From: Erysipelotrichaceae bacterium
Lineage (GTDB): Bacteria > Bacillota_I > Bacilli_A > Erysipelotrichales > Coprobacillaceae
DNA: 64,000 nucleotides
NCBI GenBank assembly: GCA_021201315.1
Contig: JAJQFG010000013.1
Coordinates: 1-64,000 of the forward strand
Reading direction: 5' to 3'
The stretch's first letter is position 1; every line of letters begins with the position of its first letter. The position numbers and the translations under genes are program-made. Positions 3,170-27,355 of this stretch are shown in pieces. A model generated the notes under the pieces. It worked only from the letters and a program-made list of their open reading frames with translations, did no database searches and was not told where the DNA came from.

Positions 3170-5470
3170 ATGATTGAATATATAAGAAAAAGAGATGGAC
3201 GTATGGATCCTTTTGATGCCAATAAGATAGCTGGAGCCATCTATAAAGCATTTCAAGCAACTAATGCCAAATATGATTTAGATAAAGCCTTAGAATTAGC
3301 TCATATTGTAGAAGAAAAACTAGAAAACAGACATACTCAATTACCTACAGTTGAATTAGTCCAGGATACAGTTGAAGAAACCCTTATTGAACAAGGTTAT
3401 GTTAGAATAGCTAAGGCCTATATTTTATATCGTGCAGAACGTACACGTTCTCGTGATAGAAAATCTAGGCTTATGAAAACCCTTGAAGAAATTACGTTTC
3501 AAGATGCTAAAGATAGTGATTTAAAAAGAGAAAACGCTAATGTGAATGCTGATGCTCCAATGGGCACTATGCTTAAATATGGGGCAGAAGCAGCCAAACA
3601 ATTCAATGAAATGTTTGTTTTAAATCCTTTACATAGTGCTGCTCATAAAGCAGGGGATATACATATTCATGATATGGATTTTTTAACATTAACGACTACT
3701 TGTACGCAGATAGATATTATTAAGCTATTTAAGGATGGTTTTTCTACAGGACATGGTGTTTTAAGAGAACCGAATAGTATTACGACTTATTCAGCTTTAA
3801 CATGTATTGCGATACAATCCAATCAAAATGATCAACATGGTGGCCAAGCGATTGTGAATTTTGATTATGGTATGGGTGATGGTGTTAGAAAATCATATAA
3901 GAAGTGGTATTTTAAAGCATTAGTTCATGCTTTAGAGTTATTGACTGATTTAGATATTTCTGTTGTCGATGAACTTAAAGCATTGGATATTAATCCTACA
4001 ATGGAAGATCATGGCTATCTAGCAAAAGAAAGAGAAATCCTATTGGAAAAAGGTTTAGATAACGAAATTATCACAAAAATACAAAACTTTACAACCAAAG
4101 ATGCTTATCAACAAACTGATAAAGAAACCTATCAAGCCATGGAAGCCTTAATTCATAACTTAAATACTATGAACTCTAGAGCAGGTGCTCAAGTACCTTT
4201 TAGTTCTATTAACTATGGTATGGATACTTCTCCTGAAGGAAGAATGGCCATGCGTAATGTGTTGCTTGCAACTGAAGCAGGATTAGGTGGTGGTGAAACA
4301 CCAATCTTTCCAATTCAAATCTTTAGAGTCAAAGAAGGTATCAACTATAATGAAGGTGAACCTAACTATGATTTATTTAAATTAGCTTGTCGTGTATCTG
4401 CTAAAAGACTATTCCCTAATTTCTCATTTGTCGATGCTACTTTCAATAAACAATACTATAAAGGCACCCCAGAAACAGAAATAGCTTATATGGGATGCCG
4501 TACAAGGGTTATTGGTAATGTTTATGATCCTGATAGAGAAATATGTCCTGGTAGAGGCAATCTAAGCTTTACATCCATTAACCTTGTACGACTAGCCATT
4601 AAATCTAAAGGTGATATTGATGAATTCTTTGATAAATTAGATGCTATGATTGATCTATGTATTGATCAACTCTTAGAAAGATTTGAAATCCAATGTAAAA
4701 GACGAGCTATGAATTATCCATTTTTAATGGGACAAGGTGTATGGATAGATTCTGAAAAACTAAAACCAACGGATGAAGTTAGAGAAGTATTAAAACATGG
4801 TACATTAACGATTGGTTTTATAGGTTTAGCAGAAACACTTAAATCTCTTATTGGTTATCATCATGGTGAAAGTGAAAAAGCACAAATATTAGGTTTACAA
4901 ATTGTGGCTCATATGCGTAAACGCGTTGATGAAGCATCACAAAAGTATCAACTAAACTTCTCATTAATTGCCACACCTGCAGAAGGTTTAGCAGGTAGAT
5001 TTGTAAAGCTTGATAGAGAACTCTATGGTAAAATAGAAGGAGTAACTGATAGAGAATACTATACCAATAGTTTCCATGTACCTGTCTATTATCCAATCTC
5101 TGCTTATAAAAAGATACAAATTGAAGGTCCTTATCATGAATTAACTAATGGTGGTCATATTAGTTATATTGAAATGGATGGTGATCCTACAAAGAATCTA
5201 CCAGCTTTTGAGAAGATTGTAAGAGCTATGCATGATGCTAATATTGGCTATGGGGCTATTAATCATCCAGTCGATAGAGATCCTGTATGTGGTTATAATG
5301 GTATTATTGATGATGTTTGTCCTAAATGTGGTAGAAAAGAATCAGAACATGAAGGTTTTGAACGTATTAGAAGAATAACAGGATATTTAGTAGGAACTTT
5401 AGATCGTTTCAATGATGGTAAACGTGCTGAAGAAAGAGATAGAGTGAAACATAGTATCAATGAAGATTAG
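3170..5470 (+). CDS. nrdD: Anaerobic ribonucleoside-triphosphate reductase
   Basis: The class III, glycyl-radical enzyme that reduces ribonucleoside triphosphates to deoxy forms without oxygen. An ATP-cone allosteric domain occupies about residues 1-95 (IRKRDGRMDPFDANKI). The active-site region contains SALTCIAIQSNQNDQHGGQ. Near the C terminus is a cysteine-rich metal site (PVCGYNG...DVCPKCGRKE) and the radical motif RRITGYLVGTLDRF, with the glycyl-radical Gly at about residue 738. Its length of 766 residues is normal. The SD aaggaggt precedes the ATG. The downstream nrdG overlaps its 3' end, so the pair is translationally coupled. The preceding 168 bases show no NrdR-box pair that I can identify. 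Confidence 0.97.
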   Translation: MIEYIRKRDGRMDPFDANKIAGAIYKAFQATNAKYDLDKALELAHIVEEKLENRHTQLPTVELVQDTVEETLIEQGYVRIAKAYILYRAERTRSRDRKSRLMKTLEEITFQDAKDSDLKRENANVNADAPMGTMLKYGAEAAKQFNEMFVLNPLHSAAHKAGDIHIHDMDFLTLTTTCTQIDIIKLFKDGFSTGHGVLREPNSITTYSALTCIAIQSNQNDQHGGQAIVNFDYGMGDGVRKSYKKWYFKALVHALELLTDLDISVVDELKALDINPTMEDHGYLAKEREILLEKGLDNEIITKIQNFTTKDAYQQTDKETYQAMEALIHNLNTMNSRAGAQVPFSSINYGMDTSPEGRMAMRNVLLATEAGLGGGETPIFPIQIFRVKEGINYNEGEPNYDLFKLACRVSAKRLFPNFSFVDATFNKQYYKGTPETEIAYMGCRTRVIGNVYDPDREICPGRGNLSFTSINLVRLAIKSKGDIDEFFDKLDAMIDLCIDQLLERFEIQCKRRAMNYPFLMGQGVWIDSEKLKPTDEVREVLKHGTLTIGFIGLAETLKSLIGYHHGESEKAQILGLQIVAHMRKRVDEASQKYQLNFSLIATPAEGLAGRFVKLDRELYGKIEGVTDREYYTNSFHVPVYYPISAYKKIQIEGPYHELTNGGHISYIEMDGDPTKNLPAFEKIVRAMHDANIGYGAINHPVDRDPVCGYNGIIDDVCPKCGRKESEHEGFERIRRITGYLVGTLDRFNDGKRAEERDRVKHSINED

Positions 5471-5969
5471 ATTATATGGAACCATCAACGATTCTATCGT
5501 TGATGGTCCTGGTTTAAGGTATACTATCTTTACTCAAGGTTGTTTGCATCATTGTTTTGGATGCCACAATCCTGATAGTCATGATATGAATGGTGGTTAC
5601 ATCGAAGATACAGATAAAATTATCAAAGAAATTCTAGATAATCCTTTGTTAGATGGTATCACCCTCTCAGGAGGAGAACCCATGTTACAACCATTACCAC
5701 TCATAGAAATCATCAAACACATTAAACCGCTACATATCATGATCTATAGTGGTTACACCTATGAAGAAATACTACAACTAGGAGACAATCAAAAACAACT
5801 ATTATCTCTATGTGATACCTTAGTAGATGGTCGTTTTGACATGTCAAAACGTAGTCTAGAACTTCTATATAAAGGTTCTTCTAATCAAAGAATCATTAAT
5901 ATTCAAGAATCACTCAAAAATAATACAATCATTCTACAACAGATATCAGAATATGGAGAATTTATATAA
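5460..5969 (+). CDS. nrdG: Anaerobic ribonucleotide reductase activating protein (radical SAM)
   Basis: The radical-SAM activase that abstracts hydrogen from the NrdD glycine to form the glycyl radical. The N terminus carries the family's short CxxxCxxC cluster motif in QGCLHHCFGCHNP (about residues 27-39), which binds the [4Fe-4S] cluster, followed by the SAM-contacting GITLSGGEPMLQP. Its length of 169 residues is typical. Its ATG lies inside the last codons of nrdD (11-base overlap), so production of the two partners is coupled. A strong terminator overlaps its stop codon. Confidence 0.96.
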   Translation: MKIRLYGTINDSIVDGPGLRYTIFTQGCLHHCFGCHNPDSHDMNGGYIEDTDKIIKEILDNPLLDGITLSGGEPMLQPLPLIEIIKHIKPLHIMIYSGYTYEEILQLGDNQKQLLSLCDTLVDGRFDMSKRSLELLYKGSSNQRIINIQESLKNNTIILQQISEYGEFI

Positions 5970-5985
5970 TTCTCCATATTTTGTT
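5950..5985 (+). terminator. Terminator of nrdDG
   Basis: AATATGGAGAATT and AATTCTCCATATT form a 13-bp perfect stem with a 5-base loop, followed by TTGTT. The nrdG stop codon lies in the loop. Confidence 0.8.
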
Positions 5986-6044
5986 AAAAATACTTCATAT
6001 TCTATACTTATAATACATAATGTATAAAGAAACGAGGGATTATC

Positions 6045-6683
6045 ATGTTTGCGAAGGGATTCAATATATATAAACTCATATGGATATTTGTGATTACTTC
6101 TTTTATTGGCTCATTGTTTGAAATATTATGGGTATTTGTTTCAGCAGGCAAGCTAATGAGTAGAAGTAGTTTACTTTATGGTCAGTTTTCAGTTATTTGG
6201 GGTTTTGGTTGTGTATTACTGACGATTGTTTTGCATAGGTTAGAAGGTAAAAGAGATTTGTTAGTATTTAGTGTTGGCGTTATAGCCGGTGGATGTTATG
6301 AGTATATTTGTTCTTATTTGAGTGAAAAAGTGTTTGGTGTGATTTTTTGGGATTATAGTGGTTATTCTTTTAATTTGAATGGTAGAATTAATTTACAGTT
6401 TTGTTTCTTTTGGGGTTTGATATCTGTTGTCTGGATTCAAAATATATATCCATTTTTATCCAAACACATAGAAAGTATACCACTTGCTTATGGAAAGCAA
6501 CTTACCTTGATGGTACTCGCTTTCATGATCTTTGATATGAGTATATCAGCTGCAGCCTTAATACGTATGAATCAACGTCAACAAGGTATTACAGCTACAA
6601 ACCCAATATCAGAATTCTTAGATGAACACTATGATGATGAATATCTATCACAACGTTATCAAAATATGAAATTAATGTGCTAA
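6045..6683 (+). CDS. Putative ABC-transporter type IV family membrane protein
   Basis: A polytopic membrane protein of 212 residues with hydrophobic segments near residues 9-32, 45-62, 72-90, 115-133 and 148-170. The signature GSLFEILWVF, SLLYGQFSVIWGFGCVL and VIAGGCYEYICSYLSEKVFGV.FWDYS matches the family annotated as putative ABC transporter permease (PF06541 type), very common in Firmicutes. No ATPase partner is adjacent and its function is not established experimentally as far as I know. An acidic tail (DEHYDDEYLSQRY) is cytoplasmic by inference. A TATAAT element at 6009-6014 and an SD (cgaggga) precede it. Confidence 0.8.
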   Translation: MFAKGFNIYKLIWIFVITSFIGSLFEILWVFVSAGKLMSRSSLLYGQFSVIWGFGCVLLTIVLHRLEGKRDLLVFSVGVIAGGCYEYICSYLSEKVFGVIFWDYSGYSFNLNGRINLQFCFFWGLISVVWIQNIYPFLSKHIESIPLAYGKQLTLMVLAFMIFDMSISAAALIRMNQRQQGITATNPISEFLDEHYDDEYLSQRYQNMKLMC

Positions 6684-6696
6684 AAGCACTTTTTCA
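6677..6696 (+). terminator. Short terminator after the membrane protein gene
   Basis: GTGCT pairs with AGCAC around AAA, followed by TTTTT. The stem overlaps the stop codon. The stem is only 5 bp, so efficiency is uncertain. Confidence 0.5.
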
Positions 6697-6753
6697 TTTT
6701 TTGAAAAAAAAAAAATAAGGCTTTAAATCACGATATTTCATGATGCATAATTA

Positions 6754-6782
6754 TTGACTTTTACACACTTTGATAGTACAAT
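6754..6782 (+). promoter_or_regulatory. Probable sigma-A promoter of the pilus operon
   Basis: TTGACT (6754-6759) and TACAAT (6777-6782) are separated by exactly 17 bases. This is the best promoter upstream of the tip adhesin gene. It would give a leader of about 140 bases that contains two strong palindromes. Confidence 0.65.
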
Positions 6783-6836
6783 TGTATAAATGATTGGTTA
6801 TTTAAATTAATTATTTTTGTGTATACTATTCACAGA

Positions 6837-6867
6837 AATTGAGTTTATGTGCAACATAAATTCAATT
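6837..6867 (+). promoter_or_regulatory. Long palindrome in the pilus leader
   Basis: AATTGAGTTTATGT and ACATAAATTCAATT pair over 14 positions (one G-U) with a GCA loop. No T-run follows, so it is not a terminator. It may be an operator or an RNA stem that stabilises or regulates the pilus transcript. Confidence 0.55.
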
Positions 6868-6884
6868 CTTAGACTTGATATAAT

Positions 6885-6901
6885 GTTGATAGTTTATCAA
6901 C
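6885..6901 (+). promoter_or_regulatory. Second leader hairpin just before the ribosome binding region
   Basis: GTTGATA and TATCAAC form a 7-bp perfect stem with a GTT loop, ending 18 bases before the GGGAG Shine-Dalgarno of the tip adhesin gene. A TATAAT (6879-6884) overlaps its left side and could be an alternative promoter -10. Confidence 0.45.
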
Positions 6902-6931
6902 TTAAGGGATTATAAATTGGGAGAAAAAATT

Positions 6932-9900
6932 ATGAGTGGATTTAGAAAAATAGTCAAGAAGGCACAAAAAACATTATTAAAGTTCATGACTATGATATTG
7001 ACTATGTCTATGATATTTAATATGTTTGGTAGCTATGTAGCTGCTGTTAATAAAGATATATATGGTTTTGAATACACTTCATCTTCTTTAGAAGTTGATT
7101 ATGGTACATCACAAGATGATATTACTTTTCCTACAACAATAACTTCAATCATTGCTTTAGATACATCTGTTTCAAGCGATGATTTTCATCATGTCGATGC
7201 ACCTGAGAGCGATTATGAAATAGTTGATTATGATACATATAAATATGATGCTATCTATGATAATACAGATACTTATGGTTATCGTGTTTATGGTTACATA
7301 GACGATGCAGATAATCCATGTTGGTATGCTTGTAATAGTCTAGGTAGCGTTTATTATGTTATAGATGATTTAGATGCATCTTGGGAATGTGATGATTATG
7401 ATGAATATACATCAGATACTTATACATTTAAATTAAAATATGATACAAACACATATTCTTATTCAGGTATACTACCTAGCATAACTGTAACAGTAGGAGA
7501 AAACCCTATAGCAACTGTAGCTGAAGAAGATGAACCAACGACTGCAACTACAACAACAGTGGATGCCAAAATTGGAGAAACTGTATATTTACCAGCAGGA
7601 TCATATACTGTAGATTATTCTAATAGCACTATGAGTAATTATATTGATATCAATAATATTTATGAAACGGTAACTTCTATTGAAAGTGGTAATAGTTATT
7701 ATATAGTCAATATTCAAAATGCTAATTATACTTTTTTAACAAATCAAACAGGTATTGACGGATCTACTTCTGGTTTGGTATGTGTAACTGATACTAGTGG
7801 GTCAACTGTAACATTATCTGATGATAATAATTATATTACAGACTCTAGTGGAAAAACATATTATAAGGCAAATGTTTCAACTGTTAACGAAGCCACATTG
7901 TGGACTTTTATAGGAAGTAATAACAGTTATTCTATTAATGATGGTTCATTATATATTAATTTTAATAGTAGAAATGTTAATTTATCTGATAGTTCTGCTA
8001 ATTTATCAGTTGTTTTAGTAAGTGGTACATCATATTATACTATTGGCAATGGCGATGGAGAATATTTAGATCGATATAGTACGACTTTTGCAGCAGGATG
8101 GGAAACAGGTTCTTCTAATGTTAATGAAAGATGGTATCTTTTTAATCAAGCAGGTATTGAAGTAAAGATTCCTAATACAGCAAAAGCTACAGGAACAATG
8201 ACTGTAACTTATGATGATGGAAGTACTTATATAATTAATATAGAAGAAACAGGTACTGTTGATTCTGTAACAACTTCTGGTACTGTAATAAACTTATTTG
8301 ATTACTGGATAACAACACAAGATGATGATGACAATCATAATTTTACAAATAGCCGTACAGTGGACGGAACAACATATGATGAAATGGTTAGTGGTATTAA
8401 CGCAAATCATTTATTAAAATTTGCTAAGAATAGAGGACAATACCCTAATTGGTCTTCTTCTACTTATTATGTTGATGCAAATATTTATAGTAATTCTAAA
8501 ACTGTAGTGAGTGGAATTGTATCTGATAAACTTAGTAATGGCTATCCTGTTCTAAGTAATAATAGTAGTATTGTTGGTTCGACAGATTATTCATCAGAAT
8601 CATTGTCTTACTTATTTAATCCTTCTGTTGAAACCAGTGGTAAAGCTTCATATAGTAATGTTACTGGATTGCTTCAAATAGATGAAAAAGGTTATTATTA
8701 TTATGATAGTACTCAAAATTATGCAGAGTATAATGAAGAAACAAATAAATTTATTCTATACGATGATTGGGCAGTTATTTCTCCAAGCAATAAGAATCCT
8801 GGCCAATTCTTTCCATTTGATTCATATAGCGATGTTACAAAAACAACAAATGCTGATCTCACAAATTGTGGACTAAATCATTATTTTGGATTAACTTTAA
8901 CTACAAAATTTATTCAACAATATGGTGGTAAAACATCAAAAGCTGATGACGCTCTTGATACAACTTTTGAGTTTTCAGGTGACGATGATGTTTGGATTTT
9001 TATTGATGATGTTTTAGTGGCTGATTTGGGTGGTATTCATGATAAAGCAAGTGTAGTAATAAACTTTGCTACAGGTGATATTACTATTACAGGTAGAGGT
9101 TCAACAATAACTGATACCATAAAAGGAATGTTTGAAAAAGCAAATGAAGATACAAGTGATTTCAATGGCAATACATTTGCTGATGATACTTACCATACTT
9201 TAAAATTCTATTATTTAGAAAGAGGTAATTCAGCTTCAAACTTAAGCTTGAAATATAACTTAACAGAAATACCTCAAACAAGTATTAGCAAGGTTAATCA
9301 ATATGGAAATCCTGTTGAAGGTGCAGAATTTGCAGTATATCAGGCAAAAATGACTACTGATTCTAATGGCGATAAAGTTTATTATTATAAATTGGATGAT
9401 AGTATTTCAAGTACTCTTTTTGGTAATACATTTACTAATACTGAATTATTAACAACATTAAATGGTGAAAATGGTGTATATATACTTGCAAGTGCTCTTT
9501 CAGAACAAATAAAAGACAGTGATGCTTTTACGATTGATGAATCCTCGGGTAATATTCAGTATACCAACGGAGGCATTACTACTACAATTGTATCAGCAAA
9601 ATATGTTGGCGAAACTGATAGCAATGGTGAAATGGTTTTTAGAGATTCTGACAATATGCTTTATTCTATAAATGAGTTAGAAAAACTATTTGGTACATCG
9701 TTTATTTTAAAGGAAATATCGGTACCTGAAGGCTATCGTTTGGTTTCGGATGATATATTCTTAAGAATTGTTAATAGTAAAATAATGGTATGTGATAATA
9801 CTTATTCTTCAGGTGTTTATGCTACAACTAATGAAGTTGTTTCTGCAACTGACACATTGTATTATTTAGATAATGGTGATACTAAGAGTGCAACATATCA

Positions 9901-19971: not shown

Positions 19972-19999
19972 AAAACTAGGATCTTACGATCCTAGTTTT
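19972..19999. terminator. Palindromic terminator of nuclease copy 2
   Basis: AAAACTAGGATC and GATCCTAGTTTT form a 12-bp perfect stem with TTAC as loop. The nuclease stop codon is in the loop. A related palindrome ends nuclease copy 3 (22329-22352). Confidence 0.7.
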
Positions 20000-21627
20000 G
20001 TAACATAACATGTTTTTTTATAAAAAGATATACCATAACCTACAACATAATGATATCCTCTGATATTGAGTCCTTCAATATATTTTTCATCAATAATTTG
20101 TTGCATAGCATCGATGCTGTCAGGAATTAATTTAGCAAACGTTTCAGAATACTTGCATTCTATAACGATTGTTATATCAGAAGCTCGTTTTGGTAATATA
20201 GCAATATCAAATCTGCCATCTCCACTTTCTCTATTAGATTCTATTTTATATTCACTAAATAATCCAATGATAAAACCATGATAAAAAGCTTCATAATTAT
20301 CATAATAACTAATACTGCTTTCTAATATATCATTCAACAAATCCATAGCTTTTTTATCATTTCCATCATTTAATGCGTTTTTAAGATCATACTTTTTGGA
20401 ATCAGTATATTCTTTAAACCATTCATTGAAAGTATTGATATATATTTCTTTGACCTCTCTGTTTGGTATTGTCAGTTCATAGATATCTAAGGATTCATCG
20501 ATAATTTTATGAATCTTTAAATAACCAGTAAACAGTAAGAAACTATAAATATTGCTAATTTGATCCATTTCTCTGTAAGTGAGTTCGGGATTGATTTTCT
20601 TTGTTAGGCAACCACCTTTAATAAGTAATTCAAATTCCTCATGTAATTGATTATCGGCTTTTTCGATATATTCCTTAATAATATAATTGCTACCAGTATT
20701 AAACCAAAATGATTTAGGTTTTGTTTTCCCCATCAATACTCGATTGATATAGTTTAATACACTCCATGGCTTATATATTTCTAAATCACCAAACAAATAA
20801 CCATCATACCATTCTTTAATAACATCAATCTTATCACTAACATTATAATAATGACATAATTCCTGAATTTCATTATAAGTAAAACCAAATCTTGTAGATG
20901 ATTTTATTTCGTTGATAGAATAAACATTAAAATTATTAAGATCAGTAAATATGCTTTCTTTTGCGATTCTTAAGCAACCTGTGAAAACACCTTTTTCTAA
21001 ATAATCATTTGTCTTTAATGCAGCTGAAAAAACTGTAGATATAAATTTAGCCATTTTATCAAAATATCCATAATTATAAGCGTCAGATAAAGGAACATCA
21101 TACTCATCAATAAGGACAAAAACTTTTTTGGAATAATGTTTATATAAATATGATGTAAGGTTTTTTAAAGCATCCATCAAATCATTCATCGAAGCTTTTT
21201 CGAATTTATAATTATTGAGCTTTATTTTTTCTGATTCATCTAAATAAGGACTATCAAATAATTCAGGATATTTTAAAACTGTATCTTTTATAATTGCTCC
21301 AAATTTGTCAATTTGTAACTCATAAGTTTCTCTTTTCATATCTTTTAAAGTAATAAAGATGACTGGATATTGATTTTGGTGTTTCATGATATCTTTATCT
21401 TTAGAGATTTCTAAACCATTAAATAAATATGCATTATCTTTTTCCTTGATAGAATAGAAATAATAAAGCATACTCATATTGAGTGTTTTTCCAAAACGTC
21501 TTGGTCTTGTATATAAAGCGAATTTTTCATTGCTAATATCTTTAATAAGCATGGTTTTATCTACATAATAATAATGGTAATCTATAATTTCTTTAAAGTT
21601 TTCAGTACCAGTTGAAATATCTTTCAT
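19984..21627 (-). CDS. AAA-like ATPase / PD-(D/E)XK nuclease family protein (copy 2)
   Basis: A paralogue of the protein at 1385, 547 residues. The start at 21627 is preferred because AAAGGAG lies 8 bases upstream and overlaps the more distal ATG at 21645. Motifs are TRPRRFGKTLNMSMLYYF (Walker A-like), KVFVLIDEYDVPL (Walker B) and, near the C terminus, SGDGRFDIAILPK followed by IVIECKYSE, giving the D and E-x-K nuclease residues. The ending GYHYVVGYGISFYKKTCYV is duplicated as a fragment at 21749-21859. The role is unknown. It sits inside a rearranged zone flanked by two copies of a type I toxin module, which suggests arrival or amplification by recombination. Confidence 0.85.
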   Translation of the reverse strand: MKDISTGTENFKEIIDYHYYYVDKTMLIKDISNEKFALYTRPRRFGKTLNMSMLYYFYSIKEKDNAYLFNGLEISKDKDIMKHQNQYPVIFITLKDMKRETYELQIDKFGAIIKDTVLKYPELFDSPYLDESEKIKLNNYKFEKASMNDLMDALKNLTSYLYKHYSKKVFVLIDEYDVPLSDAYNYGYFDKMAKFISTVFSAALKTNDYLEKGVFTGCLRIAKESIFTDLNNFNVYSINEIKSSTRFGFTYNEIQELCHYYNVSDKIDVIKEWYDGYLFGDLEIYKPWSVLNYINRVLMGKTKPKSFWFNTGSNYIIKEYIEKADNQLHEEFELLIKGGCLTKKINPELTYREMDQISNIYSFLLFTGYLKIHKIIDESLDIYELTIPNREVKEIYINTFNEWFKEYTDSKKYDLKNALNDGNDKKAMDLLNDILESSISYYDNYEAFYHGFIIGLFSEYKIESNRESGDGRFDIAILPKRASDITIVIECKYSETFAKLIPDSIDAMQQIIDEKYIEGLNIRGYHYVVGYGISFYKKTCYVTKLGS

Positions 21628-21717
21628 ATGAGATGCTCCTTTCATTAGATTTGTTATATGAATTATAACATATAATTCTTATAAAAACCAATATACAATC
21701 ATTTTATAAAAAATAAA

Positions 21718-22328: not shown

Positions 22329-22352
22329 AAATAGGATCTTAGGATCCTATTT
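22329..22352. terminator. Palindromic terminator of nuclease copy 3
   Basis: AAATAGGATC and GATCCTATTT form a 10-bp perfect stem with loop TTAG. It contains the stop codon of the nuclease and resembles the palindrome ending copy 2. Confidence 0.65.
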
Positions 22353-23924
22353 GTCTTTTATATATTTTTCGATTTTGGCTATATGTTTCTTTTCACCTTT
22401 GTTATAGGTAATACCTACTAACAATAAATTACCATGATAATGTTTTAAATTACGAGAATAATTTCTTTCTTTAATTTGATCAATAGCTGTTACTACATCT
22501 TTATCATATTTAAGTTCAATAATCATTGCTGGATAATTTGGATGATAAGGAATGAATGCTACATCACAGAAACCTTTACCAGTTGGCAGTTCTCTAAATG
22601 GTGTATAATAATCTTTAGCTGTAAAATATGCTAACATGATTGTTGTATATAATGAATTTTCGTCATTATATTTTAAATTAGAATTGATAAATGAGTCATG
22701 GACTTCTTCTAATCCTGATGCTACTTTTTCTTCATTCATATCCCAAGTAGCCTCCAATAATTCTTGGGATGAACATATAGCTTTATATGTTTGTTCATAT
22801 TTAGATGTTTTGATTGATTGTATAAAAGAATCAATAACTTCTTTATTTGGGATATATACAGATTCAGTTTGTCTGTTATACCCTAAATAACCTAAATGAA
22901 TAAGCATTGTTAAAACATCGTCCTTATTCTTAAAAATAGACATATCGTTTTGGAAACCCGCTGTATCTACTTTAACCTCCTCACCAGCTAATAATTGAAT
23001 AACGGACTCTTTTAAACCATCAAAATTCATAGCTATATGATTAGCTAAATTTTCAAAAGTTCCAGTTTTGCTCCAATAACTTCTACATTGTTTTAAAGTA
23101 ATCGCTTTTGCTATAGATCTAGGACTATATATCGAAGTATTATTAGTAATATGATAACCATCATACCATACTTTCATATCATCGAAATCCATATCATTTT
23201 TCAAACATAAATCTTTGACTTCATCTTCACTAAATCCCATATATTTTTCAAATGGTTCTGGTTCAATCATATTTATTTCATCAAAAGTATTGAGGGCACT
23301 TTCGTCTCCGTATTTTTTTATTGGAAGTATGCCTGTCATATAAGCTAATGTCACATATTCCTTTTCTTTAAGAAATCTATTCATAAACTTTAAAAATAAT
23401 TTTTTATCATCTGAAGTAGCTTCCTTATTTCTTAATACACAGTCCCATTCATCAATGATAAAAATAAAATGTTCATCTAACTCAGCATATATATCATCTA
23501 AGGAATTTGGTAAATCAGTATTATCAAGATAATCAACATTTTTATAAACTTTCAATAAGTCCCTTAAGACAGATTTTGAAAGAAAAGCTAACATATCTTT
23601 AACATTGTTATATTTATCATAAAACTCTAACATATTTATAAATATAACATTATGCTTATTGAGGTGTTCATGGTACATATCTGTTTCTGATATTTTTAAA
23701 TCATTAAATAAAGTTGATGAATCACATCCTTTTGAAAAATAAGCAGCAAGCATCTTAGCATCAGTACTTTTTCCAAATCTTCTTGGTCTTGATATACAGA
23801 TAAACTCATTAGTTTCGATTGCATAGTTATAAACTTTATGAATCAATAAGGATTTATCTACATATATATTTCTTGATTTAATTTTTTTAAATCTTTCATT
23901 TCCTGGATTTAAAAATCTTCCCAT
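22347..23924 (-). CDS. AAA-like ATPase / PD-(D/E)XK nuclease family protein (copy 3)
   Basis: A 525-residue, more divergent member of the same family. The start at 23924 is chosen because AAGGAG directly abuts the upstream ATG 23933 but is 9 bases from this one. Motifs are ISRPRRFGKSTDAKMLAAYF (Walker A-like), FIFIIDEWDCVLR (Walker B), and GFCDVAFIPYHP then MIIELKYDKDV for the nuclease domain, followed by LLLVGITYNKGEKKH. The C-terminal layout is that of DUF1703 proteins. The function of the family is unknown. It is monocistronic and upstream of the candidate small RNA. Confidence 0.85.
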   Translation of the reverse strand: MGRFLNPGNERFKKIKSRNIYVDKSLLIHKVYNYAIETNEFICISRPRRFGKSTDAKMLAAYFSKGCDSSTLFNDLKISETDMYHEHLNKHNVIFINMLEFYDKYNNVKDMLAFLSKSVLRDLLKVYKNVDYLDNTDLPNSLDDIYAELDEHFIFIIDEWDCVLRNKEATSDDKKLFLKFMNRFLKEKEYVTLAYMTGILPIKKYGDESALNTFDEINMIEPEPFEKYMGFSEDEVKDLCLKNDMDFDDMKVWYDGYHITNNTSIYSPRSIAKAITLKQCRSYWSKTGTFENLANHIAMNFDGLKESVIQLLAGEEVKVDTAGFQNDMSIFKNKDDVLTMLIHLGYLGYNRQTESVYIPNKEVIDSFIQSIKTSKYEQTYKAICSSQELLEATWDMNEEKVASGLEEVHDSFINSNLKYNDENSLYTTIMLAYFTAKDYYTPFRELPTGKGFCDVAFIPYHPNYPAMIIELKYDKDVVTAIDQIKERNYSRNLKHYHGNLLLVGITYNKGEKKHIAKIEKYIKDK

Positions 23925-23999
23925 TTTACTCATCTCCTTAAAAAGAATTATATCATAAAATACTTATTTCTTATAGTGAATTTAAGATGTTTTATTAAC

Positions 24000-24108
24000 A
24001 AAAAAGCAGATACAGTGGGAGCCCGTATCTGCTTTCTTATTGATATCAGTTTGGGAAAGGATATCATGAAGTAGTCATATTTGAAGGGAAAACAAAATTT
24101 TGACTACG
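24000..24108 (-). ncRNA. Candidate trans-acting small RNA with three UCCC-loop hairpins
   Basis: On the minus strand, an extended -10 (TGTTATACT, 24121-24114 region) predicts a start near 24108, exactly at the first stem. Hairpin 1: GTAGTCA / TGACTAC, loop containing TTTTCCCTT. Hairpin 2: GATATC / GATATC, loop CTTTCCCAAACT. Hairpin 3: AAGCAGATAC / GTATCTGCTT, loop GGGCTCCCACT, then TTTTTT, an intrinsic terminator. Each loop exposes UCCC, the motif by which several Firmicutes sRNAs (RsaE type, csRNAs) pair with G-rich Shine-Dalgarno sites. No ORF is visible in it. The size is about 108 bases. Confidence 0.6.
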
Positions 24109-24246
24109 TGTATAGTATAACATAAAATTAAGAAAAGGGTTAGTGTAATTTAACAAAAAATTATGTGAAATTATCGTTTTTAATTATATTTTACAATTTA
24201 CTTTTTGTTTTTAGTATGTTAGTCTTAAATAGAGAGAAGGTATTTT

Positions 24247-25071
24247 ATGAAAAGGTTGTTTTATCGTTTGATTATTTTTATCAATACGACGGAGAATCAT
24301 GATACAAATTATAATATAGCTTTGTTTATGGTTCATAATTTTTATCGTATAGGAAATATGCGTATTAATGAGGTAGCTGAGGAGTGTTTTGTTTCACCTG
24401 CGACGGTATCACGTTTTTGTCGTGCTTTGGGATATGAAAACTTTGCTCATTTGAAGCAGGAGTGTATTGATTTTCATTCTCCTGGTAAAATGTTTGATAA
24501 TCTTATTGAGGTTTCTTTGGATACAATGCATGATAATCCAACAGAAGCTACAAAAATACATGTGAATCAAATTATTGATTATTTAAAGGATTTACCTGAT
24601 TATTTGGATTGGAATGAAGTTGATGCTATGTTAGAGTTGATTCATGATCATGATACAGTTGCTTTTTTTGGTACACAGTTTTCTCATAGTGTGGCATTGC
24701 ATTTTCAAACGGATTTGTTGATGTTAGAGAAGTTTGTGATGGCTTATACTACAACTGCTAGACAGGAAGAATGTGCTAAGGGCTTGGATGAGAATAGCGT
24801 TGCAGTTATTTTTAGTGTGAATGGTTATTTTGTTGATGCAGCGAATCGTGTTATGCATTATTTGAAGAAGTCTGGATGTAAGATTGTTTTGATAACGTGT
24901 AATAGTCATATCGATACGTCTTTTAAAATAGATCATATTATATTGTTAGGTAAAGATAATAATAAGAAAATTGGTAAACATAGCTTGTTAACAGCTGTAG
25001 AACTTATGTCATTAAGATATTATTGCTTATATTACCCATCTATTACGGAGTTAAAGGAACATCTTCTTTAA
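24247..25071 (+). CDS. MurR/RpiR-family transcriptional regulator (1)
   Basis: A 274-residue regulator with an N-terminal HTH_6 domain (MRINEVAEECFVSPATVSRF, about residues 38-58) and a C-terminal SIS domain (residues about 130-250, VAFFGTQFSHSVALHFQ, VAVIFSVNGYFVDAANRVM) that usually binds a phosphorylated sugar. The start has gagagaagg in front. It lies directly ahead of the fumarase genes, and a second RpiR regulator follows them, so it probably controls this cluster. The effector is unknown. Confidence 0.85.
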   Translation: MKRLFYRLIIFINTTENHDTNYNIALFMVHNFYRIGNMRINEVAEECFVSPATVSRFCRALGYENFAHLKQECIDFHSPGKMFDNLIEVSLDTMHDNPTEATKIHVNQIIDYLKDLPDYLDWNEVDAMLELIHDHDTVAFFGTQFSHSVALHFQTDLLMLEKFVMAYTTTARQEECAKGLDENSVAVIFSVNGYFVDAANRVMHYLKKSGCKIVLITCNSHIDTSFKIDHIILLGKDNNKKIGKHSLLTAVELMSLRYYCLYYPSITELKEHLL

Positions 25072-25138
25072 TTCTTTTTTTCTTGTCTATAAGCATAAAA
25101 ATGTATATAATGTTGGTAATAAAAAGGTGTGTGATGAT

Positions 25139-25981
25139 ATGAGGAACATAAAATATGATGAAATAGTTGATGCTATTAAAGAAATGTGCATTGAAGCAAA
25201 TATGGTATTACCATCAGATATTACAAATGTGATTGAAGAAGCTTATCAAAATGAGGATTTTAAGCTTGCTAAAGAAACATTAGAAATATTAAAAGAAAAT
25301 GCCCAAATAGCCAAGAGAGAAAATGCGCCTATTTGTCAAGATACAGGTATGGCTTGTGTTTTTGTAGAAATAGGACAGGATGTTCATATAATAGGTGATA
25401 TGAATGAAGCTATCAATGAGGGTGTAAGACAAGGTTATGAAGAAGGATACTTGCGTAAAAGTGTCGTCAATGATCCAATGTTTGATCGCATCAATACAAA
25501 AGATAATACACCTGCTATTATTCATTATGAAATAGTACCTGGAGACAAATTAAAAATTACCTTGGCTCCAAAAGGCTTTGGTAGTGAAAATATGTGTCAA
25601 GTTAAGATGCTTAAGCCTAGTGATGGTGTTGAAGGTGTTAAAGAATTTGTTTTAAAAGTTGTGAAAGATGCAGGACCTAATGCATGTCCACCAATGGTCA
25701 TTGGTGTGGGTATTGGTGGTTCGTTTGATTATGTAGCTTATTTATCAAAGAAAGCTATGCTTCGTGATAGTCATAGTCATCATCAAGATCCACGTTATGC
25801 AGCTTTGGAAGATGAATTATTGGAAATGATTAATCAAACTGGTATTGGACCAGCTGGATATGGTGGTAAAACAACAGCTTTATCACTCAATATTGAAACA
25901 TATCCAACACATATTGCTGGTATGCCAGTAGCAGTGAGTATTTGTTGTCATGTAGCTAGACATAAGGAGGTTATATTATGA
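25139..25981 (+). CDS. Class I fumarate hydratase-type, alpha subunit
   Basis: The catalytic subunit of the two-subunit iron-sulfur hydro-lyases (fumarase or L-tartrate dehydratase, TtdA/FumA N-terminal type), 280 residues. ATG 25139 fits GGTG 9 bases upstream. Cluster and active-site segments are APICQDTGMACVFVEIG (first Cys), DAGPNACPPMVIGVGIGGSFD (second) and GIGPAGYGGKTTAL, then ISICCHVARH-like VSICCHVARH with the last Cys. In an anaerobe it interconverts fumarate and malate, or acts on tartrate; sequence alone does not separate these. The stop overlaps the beta subunit start (ATGA). Confidence 0.9.
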   Translation: MRNIKYDEIVDAIKEMCIEANMVLPSDITNVIEEAYQNEDFKLAKETLEILKENAQIAKRENAPICQDTGMACVFVEIGQDVHIIGDMNEAINEGVRQGYEEGYLRKSVVNDPMFDRINTKDNTPAIIHYEIVPGDKLKITLAPKGFGSENMCQVKMLKPSDGVEGVKEFVLKVVKDAGPNACPPMVIGVGIGGSFDYVAYLSKKAMLRDSHSHHQDPRYAALEDELLEMINQTGIGPAGYGGKTTALSLNIETYPTHIAGMPVAVSICCHVARHKEVIL

Positions 25982-26541
25982 TAAAAATAACGACTCCTTT
26001 TACCAGTCAGGATGCTTTAAAACTAAAAGCTGGTGATCAAGTTTTGATTAGTGGTGTTATCTATACGGGTAGAGATGCTGCTCATAAACGCTTGATTCAA
26101 TTAATCAAAGATAATCAACCATTACCATTTGATGTTAAAGATCAAATCATTTATTATGTTGGACCAACCCCAGCCAAACCAGGACATGTTTTTGGTAGTG
26201 GTGGACCAACAACATCAGGAAGAATGGATGCTTATGCTCCAGAACTTCTAAAATTAGGCTTACGTGGTATGATTGGTAAAGGTTATAGAAATGATAATGT
26301 CAAACAAGCAATCAAAGATTATCAAGGTATTTATTTTGGTGCAATAGGGGGTGCAGGTGCTTATATATCGCATTGTATTAAAGAATGTGAAGTGATTGCT
26401 TTTGAGGATTTAGGAACAGAAGCAATACGTCGTTTATATGTAGAAGATTTACCAGTAACGGTATTAATAGATTGTCAGGGAAACGATTTATATGAATTGG
26501 GACAAATTCAATACTTAAAGGAGCACAACTATGGCAATTAG
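25978..26541 (+). CDS. Class I fumarate hydratase-type, beta subunit
   Basis: The C-terminal-type subunit (TtdB/FumA C-terminal domain) of the same hydro-lyase, 187 residues. Diagnostic segments are DQVLISGVIYTGRDAAHKRL, YYVGPTPAKPGHVFGSGGPT and YFGAIGGAGAYISHCIK, which shape the substrate pocket. The 4-base overlap with the alpha gene implies equal production of the two chains. The next regulator gene overlaps it by 11 bases, so the enzyme and regulator share a transcript. Confidence 0.92.
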   Translation: MIKITTPFTSQDALKLKAGDQVLISGVIYTGRDAAHKRLIQLIKDNQPLPFDVKDQIIYYVGPTPAKPGHVFGSGGPTTSGRMDAYAPELLKLGLRGMIGKGYRNDNVKQAIKDYQGIYFGAIGGAGAYISHCIKECEVIAFEDLGTEAIRRLYVEDLPVTVLIDCQGNDLYELGQIQYLKEHNYGN

Positions 26542-27355
26542 AAATTATAATGAGGTAGATATTTTGTATACATTGATGTCATTTGTTAATGTATCTTCAG
26601 TACAGGATATGTATTATACAATTGCACAAACCATTCTATCCCATTTAGACAAAATACCTGATATTAGCATTAATGATCTAGCTGATCTTTGTTACACATC
26701 ACCAGCAACCATTTCACGCTTTTGTAAAGATTTAAATTGTAAAAACTTTGTTACTTTCAAAAAAGAAATTGCGGTAGCTTTAGAACAATCTAAAAACGAA
26801 GTTCATCTGTCTACCAAAGATGAAGAAGAATGCATAAAAAATCCAGATTACTTAGTAGATAAAATGTATAACGAAGCAACAGAATCATTACAAATGGTGC
26901 AAAAAAGCATCAACATGCATGAAATTGACAAAATATGTGAAATGATATACACTGCTAAAAGTGTCCAAATGATAGGATATCAATTTAACAAAATCATATC
27001 CAATGATTTCCAAATGAAAATGCTTAAACACAGGAAAATGGTATATGCCTTTGTAGAACGTGGTGATGAAATAGGACACTTAGATATGATTAATAAAGAT
27101 ACATTAGTTATGATTATTAGTGTACGTGCAAGAGCACAGCTAATGGATGCTTTGTTAAGAAAAATAAGTGAACATCATCCAAAAATTATTTTATTAACAA
27201 TGAATAAAGAATATCATCATCATCTGATTGATTATATTTATTGTATTGATGGAACAGAAAGTAATTATACGGAATCATCATTACAAGGAACCATGAATTT
27301 TTTAAGTTTATTAAATCTTATTTATGTAAGGTACGGATTACTATATAGAAAGTAG
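26531..27355 (+). CDS. MurR/RpiR-family transcriptional regulator (2)
   Basis: A second RpiR-type regulator of 274 residues. The HTH contains ISINDLADLCYTSPATISRF (about residues 39-58), and a SIS-like domain follows (KSVQMIGYQFNKIISNDFQM, VMIISVRARAQLMDALLRKI). It differs enough from the regulator at 24247 to be an independent copy, although length and layout match. It overlaps the fumarase beta gene and is followed after 7 bases by the aldolase gene. The pair of regulators may respond to two different effectors or act as partners. Confidence 0.85.
   Translation: MAIRNYNEVDILYTLMSFVNVSSVQDMYYTIAQTILSHLDKIPDISINDLADLCYTSPATISRFCKDLNCKNFVTFKKEIAVALEQSKNEVHLSTKDEEECIKNPDYLVDKMYNEATESLQMVQKSINMHEIDKICEMIYTAKSVQMIGYQFNKIISNDFQMKMLKHRKMVYAFVERGDEIGHLDMINKDTLVMIISVRARAQLMDALLRKISEHHPKIILLTMNKEYHHHLIDYIYCIDGTESNYTESSLQGTMNFLSLLNLIYVRYGLLYRK

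Follow-up and report, generated by a model that had tools for sequence, protein, structure and literature searches.

RsaE/RoxS of Staphylococcus and Bacillus is an RNA of about 100 nt whose UCCC seeds are complementary to Shine-Dalgarno sequences, and LhrC of Listeria has a length of ~110 nt. In Listeria monocytogenes, the multicopy RNAs LhrC1-5 carry three UCCC-bearing contact sites and have a promoter of their own that includes a response element lying upstream of -53 (residues near -55 to -75); the UCCC sites contact the GGGAG of lapB mRNA, and Hfq is dispensable for both LhrC stability and target interaction (PMC4132741). Among sRNAs of low-GC Gram-positive bacteria, contact of UCCC with a Shine-Dalgarno region, shown for LhrC, is cited in the same work for RNAIII, RsaE, SprD and FsrA (PMC4132741), and 48% of the bona fide sRNAs of S. 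aureus contain UCCC (PMC5826253). The CiaR-dependent csRNAs of streptococci hold anti-Shine-Dalgarno sequences within unpaired regions, form paralogue families and possess an upstream activator site in their promoters (PMC3091779).

Here we describe a locus of Coprobacillaceae gut bacteria that is very probably a genuine, so far uncatalogued gene for a small regulatory RNA; it lies in a 64,000-nucleotide stretch of an Erysipelotrichaceae bacterium contig (the window, i.e., the whole stretch analysed). Similar in length to LhrC and RsaE/RoxS, the RNA exposes three conserved UCCC loops in its fold, so that, as in LhrC, UCCC is accessible and, as in the csRNAs, anti-Shine-Dalgarno sequences (UUCCC/CUCCC) are unpaired. 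However, LhrC is composed of two stem-loops plus a single-stranded UCCC site, whereas the window sRNA devotes one hairpin to each UCCC; the conserved unpaired region of typical csRNAs lies between two stem-loops, whereas here the motif sits in the loops; and RsaE/RoxS has another architecture and belongs to another clade. The CiaR repeat NTTAAG-N5-TTTAAG (TTTAAG-N5-TTTAAG) is absent upstream of the -10 in the upstream sequences read, where a different box is conserved. The original prediction had not recognised the family. In Rfam searches no family, including LhrC, the csRNAs and RsaE/RoxS, matched the window region at gathering score or E<=5, or 8 homologue loci at E<=1, and matches at relaxed thresholds (rli61, psbA, mir-246) were dismissed as chance. 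A literature survey of partial coverage found no sRNA studies of Coprobacillaceae. Because Rfam gives no match and the sequence or promoter hallmarks of LhrC, csRNAs and RsaE are missing, the window sRNA is best explained as a new RNA family that works like these three but does not belong to them. Our preferred reading, to which we assign a probability of about two in three, is a trans-acting, Hfq-independent antisense sRNA of ~108 nt whose UCCC loops pair with Shine-Dalgarno regions.

Fold and promoter of the small RNA gene

The features of the locus are as follows, with the basis of each in brackets.

24000..24107, minus strand: small RNA gene, ~108 nt, three hairpins (fold, covariance model, Coprobacillaceae homologues)
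24071..24107, minus strand: hairpin 1, outer stem GUAGUC/GACUAC, inner stem UUUG/CAAA, loop UUUUCCCUU at 24092-24084 (fold)
24041..24066, minus strand: hairpin 2, stem UGAUAUC/GAUAUCA, loop CUUUCCCAAACU at 24059-24048 (fold)
24000..24037, minus strand: hairpin 3, the intrinsic terminator, loop GCUCCCA at 24022-24016, T6 tail at 24005-24000 (fold)
24114..24122, minus strand: extended -10 TGTTATACT (sequence; TATA-type -10 similarly placed in relatives)
24147..24170, minus strand: conserved upstream box TTTCACATAATTTTTTGTTAAATT, about -63 to -40, probable activator site (between-genera identity, fixed distance)
24247..25071, plus strand: divergent neighbour, RpiR/SIS-family regulator (Pfam HTH_6 and SIS; synteny)
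22347..23933, minus strand: co-directional downstream gene, AAA-ATPase_like/PDDEXK_9 protein (Pfam; synteny)

Sequence and fold confirm the original prediction of three minus-strand hairpins with UCCC loops, the last being a terminator with six Ts. The minimum free energy is -34.6 kcal/mol, as against -13.2 ± 2.7 in 200 dinucleotide shuffles (z -7.9; none of the 200 equalled it), and covariance model R1 scores the window sRNA at 124 bits. Transcription probably starts at G24107, where the first stem begins. The arrangement exceeds chance: when 2.53 Mb of the genome of a relative was scanned on both strands for neighbouring stems with TTCCC/CTCCC loops, three places were found, one being the sRNA and the other two looking like chance. 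A plus-strand match of the covariance model at 23950-24037 in the window was discarded as the terminator's mirror image. The predicted lack of an ORF extends to the relatives: the sole sizeable frame, which opens at an ATG 5' of hairpin 2, shifts among them and has no ribosome-binding site, and its ATG is missing in one locus (L014), leaving no conserved ORF.

Upstream, the extended -10 is present as predicted, but its placement "exactly one turn" before the first stem is loosely worded, because 6 nt separate the -10 hexamer from that stem. The first reading overlooked a 21-bp box, which reads TCACATATTTTTTGACAA in most genomes; its 3' end lies 40-41 nt upstream of the RNA in 14/14 loci, and its identity between genera is 0.87 versus 0.62 for the spacer. 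Since this conserved box stands at a fixed distance and the sRNA promoter has no good -35, the arrangement has the anatomy of an activated promoter, comparable to that of LhrC with its element upstream of -53 (PMC4132741). In 2.53 Mb (86%) of genome G034, the only box site above 30 bits is the sRNA's own, which led us to reject the box as the mark of a large regulon; the second-best site (22 bits) lies upstream of an mraZ-like cell-division cluster.

Homologues, covariation and synteny

A BLAST search with 146 bases against 60 related genomes found strong matches in 13 genomes besides that of the window, and weaker variants in additional ones. A covariance model built from 14 sequences found matches at E <= 0.05 in 29/43 family genomes, among which L058 and L059 are terminators without the loop set; G015 was added through synteny, its model match (6181-6285, expected strand) sitting between an RpiR gene (5260-6060) and a dipeptidase gene (6292-7260). 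By both methods together, 14 further genomes are high-scoring and about 13 divergent, all of them Coprobacillaceae, and the named records with the exact pattern, from which we derive the family name Coprobacillaceae, are Massilimicrobiota, Longibaculum, Candidatus Stoquefichus and Erysipelotrichaceae MAGs. No convincing homologue was found outside the family, 316 genomes of the order giving two terminators only. L072 and L073 (outside the family), together with L058, L059 and L081, were not counted, being terminators of similar appearance in which the UUCCC loop set is missing.

In the 15 distinct sequences of the close set, pairing holds in 98.2% of pair cells and both sides have changed in 8 pairs, compared with 2.9 ± 1.0 after shuffling (0/500 shuffles as high), counts that lean towards structure because the alignment was fitted to it, with slid controls falling to 33-50% paired. 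Seven of the 8 two-sided changes lie in the terminator stem and one in hairpin 1; hairpin 2 is almost invariant in this set and is therefore uninformative for covariation by itself. Between genera, identity is 0.94 in loop 1, 0.98 in hairpin 2 and 0.85 in loop 3, as against 0.62-0.65 in spacer and flanks (0.62 in the upstream spacer, 0.64 in the downstream flank), hairpins 1 and 2 being better conserved than the terminator. The third loop is the least constrained: its UCCC is missing from the terminator loops of L088, L080, L049, L082, L083 and the second G006 copy, the losses affecting one close relative as well as several paralogues. The original prediction had set compensatory changes around conserved UCCC loops against the opposite outcome of lost stems and random UCCC; in the relatives, the two-sided changes and the conserved loop regions (0.85-0.98) agree with the former, and stems are either kept or swapped whole with UUCCC mostly kept.

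Most relatives have the RNA flanked by a convergent M19-type dipeptidase gene, identified by its DMHCDT motif, on one side and by divergent lipoprotein, RpiR and fumarase genes on the other. In the window, the AAA-ATPase_like/PDDEXK_9 gene occupies the dipeptidase's place and the lipoprotein gene is absent beside the sRNA; RpiR and fumarase are confirmed by Pfam. Since most relatives have neighbours in divergent or convergent orientation, the RNA is an independent unit and not a leader. A cis-acting leader or riboswitch of a neighbouring gene could be argued from the co-directional downstream gene in the window, but is contradicted by the synteny of most relatives, and the terminator closes the unit, so we regard it as barely credible. 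Nor is there consistent complementarity to the sRNA in the neighbours' ribosome-binding sites, on which ground a cis-target among these genes was rejected; together with the neighbours' orientation, this speaks for a trans role.

The conserved gene order, along with A and T runs flanking the third hairpin that could act both ways, would also suit a non-regulatory element, i.e., a complex terminator working in both directions or a structured spacer that separates convergent genes, with UCCC there by inheritance. We consider this very improbable: such an element does not account for the sRNA's own promoter and box at a fixed distance, for hairpins 1 and 2 outlasting the terminator in conservation, for copies of genera g4 and g18 at other loci without an adjoining dipeptidase, or for loops that survive stem changes. 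Homologues, compensatory changes, synteny and the unit's own promoter and terminator all support an independent small RNA gene that conserves its UCCC loops.

Two further arrangements were observed around these loci. Two AAA-ATPase_like/PDDEXK_9 genes stand close together on the minus strand of the window (19984-21645 and 22347-23933), and similar-looking genes occur near 82005 in G034 and adjoining an sRNA copy in L055/L083. At 24247-27355 of the window, fumarase alpha and beta genes are flanked by two RpiR/SIS regulators, and the RpiR-fumarase arrangement repeats beside the sRNA in relatives.

Proposed pairing with ribosome-binding sites

As a trans-acting antisense RNA, the sRNA would extend from a promoter of its own (extended -10, lacking a good -35, putative activator box about -63 to -40) to its own terminator, and its stable stems would keep the short C-rich loops single-stranded. 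Each UUCCC/CUCCC loop may then make the first contact with GGGA/GGAG in an mRNA ribosome-binding site, and such pairing would block ribosome entry and probably speed decay. By analogy with the described systems, we infer that the sRNA represses translation. Several equivalent loops could allow one molecule to address several sites or mRNAs without Hfq; Hfq (PF17209) was found in 0/6 family genomes searched (G000, G034, G008, G021, G035 and G020), with E. coli and B. subtilis controls positive. The same anatomy would presumably serve an RNA sponge or decoy, whose loops would capture, by pairing, small RNAs or mRNA 5' ends that carry GGGA and so free other transcripts, with net activation, but no GGGA-looped partner RNA was identified, and we hold this improbable.

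The original prediction had cast the RNA as a multi-target regulator acting at Shine-Dalgarno sites, to be followed by target prediction. In a scan of one genome, 29 genes have a perfect match of at least 8 nt to loop 1, versus 20 ± 11 with permuted flanks, which is not significant, and loops 2 and 3 likewise give no significant excess; multi-target action at Shine-Dalgarno sites is thus a prediction. The sole repeated candidate, picked after seeing the data, is a single PTS EIIC orthologue: in four of the examined genomes (L239, L240, L249, L233), its Shine-Dalgarno reads GAAGGGAGG and complements part of loop 1. GAAGGGAGG is a good Shine-Dalgarno in its own right, the orthologues of G031 and G009 differ at this site, and a short N-terminal query for the orthologue in the window's own genome gave no match. 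An apparent theme of PTS targets, which shrinks to this one post hoc orthologue group, was therefore dropped.

Loops and stems in divergent members

In divergent members the stems differ or a hairpin is added, yet the UUCCC loops are mostly retained; these members provide the strongest evidence. Genus g18 has completely different second and third stems (AUUCAUGA/UCAUGAAU and CCUAGAU/AUCUAGG), yet the loops are still CUUCCCAAA and AUUCCCA, with loops 2 and 3 reading CAACUUCCCAAAUAA and CAUUCCCA on unrelated stem sequences. In L054/L056, the stem of hairpin 2 is replaced and its loop motif retained. In genus g4, several genomes hold 2-4 gene copies, and some copies have an additional, fourth hairpin with arms UUAUUAGUAUC and GAUAACUAAUAA around the loop CUUUCCCU. 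Such natural variants, differing in loop number, make the worth of loop redundancy testable.

A hairpin array that repeats one loop motif in variable number is also the build of CsrB/RsmZ. CsrA binds GGA, whereas the motif here is UUCCC, and GGA is absent from the hairpin loops of the core set (UUCCC/UCCC loops); for the window sRNA, unlike CsrB/RsmZ, no protein partner was identified. A sponge of this type, titrating an RNA-binding protein that recognises UUUCCC hairpin loops with pairing not its main role, would agree with the repeated motif, the differing number of motif-bearing hairpins, the convergence of g4 loops on the same CUUUCCCU, the paralogues in several genomes and the weak target statistics. 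We nevertheless judge this main rival unlikely, as the close-set loops keep their own flanks (loop 2 AAACU nearly throughout), which a common protein site would not need, the loop motif complements Shine-Dalgarno sequences, and we know of no protein with UUUCCC-loop specificity. Slightly more doubtful is an RNA built of UUCCC hairpin modules, each gained, lost or given a new stem as a whole, that bind a putative UUUCCC-loop protein; such an RNA would be a CsrB-like sponge with a new specificity, in a lineage in which the search found no Hfq.

We favour antisense pairing with Shine-Dalgarno regions. With its several swappable UUCCC hairpins, the conserved sRNA family offers a clear entry point, in that it suggests that C-rich-loop regulation reaches this branch of Bacillota, through either convergence or old descent.

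Some individual copies deserve mention. At L078 (G006:C1:2183590-2184267), the entire sRNA gene is duplicated in tandem along with the region upstream of it, and UCCC has been lost from loop 1 and the terminator loop of the second copy; one G035 copy (L075) appears degenerate. In addition, a second sRNA subtype occurs in g4 genomes (L046, L048, L049, L050, L077, L079, L080, L083), in which the loop of the first hairpin contains UCCUUUCUC, a sequence resembling the 16S anti-Shine-Dalgarno tail CCUCCUUUCU.
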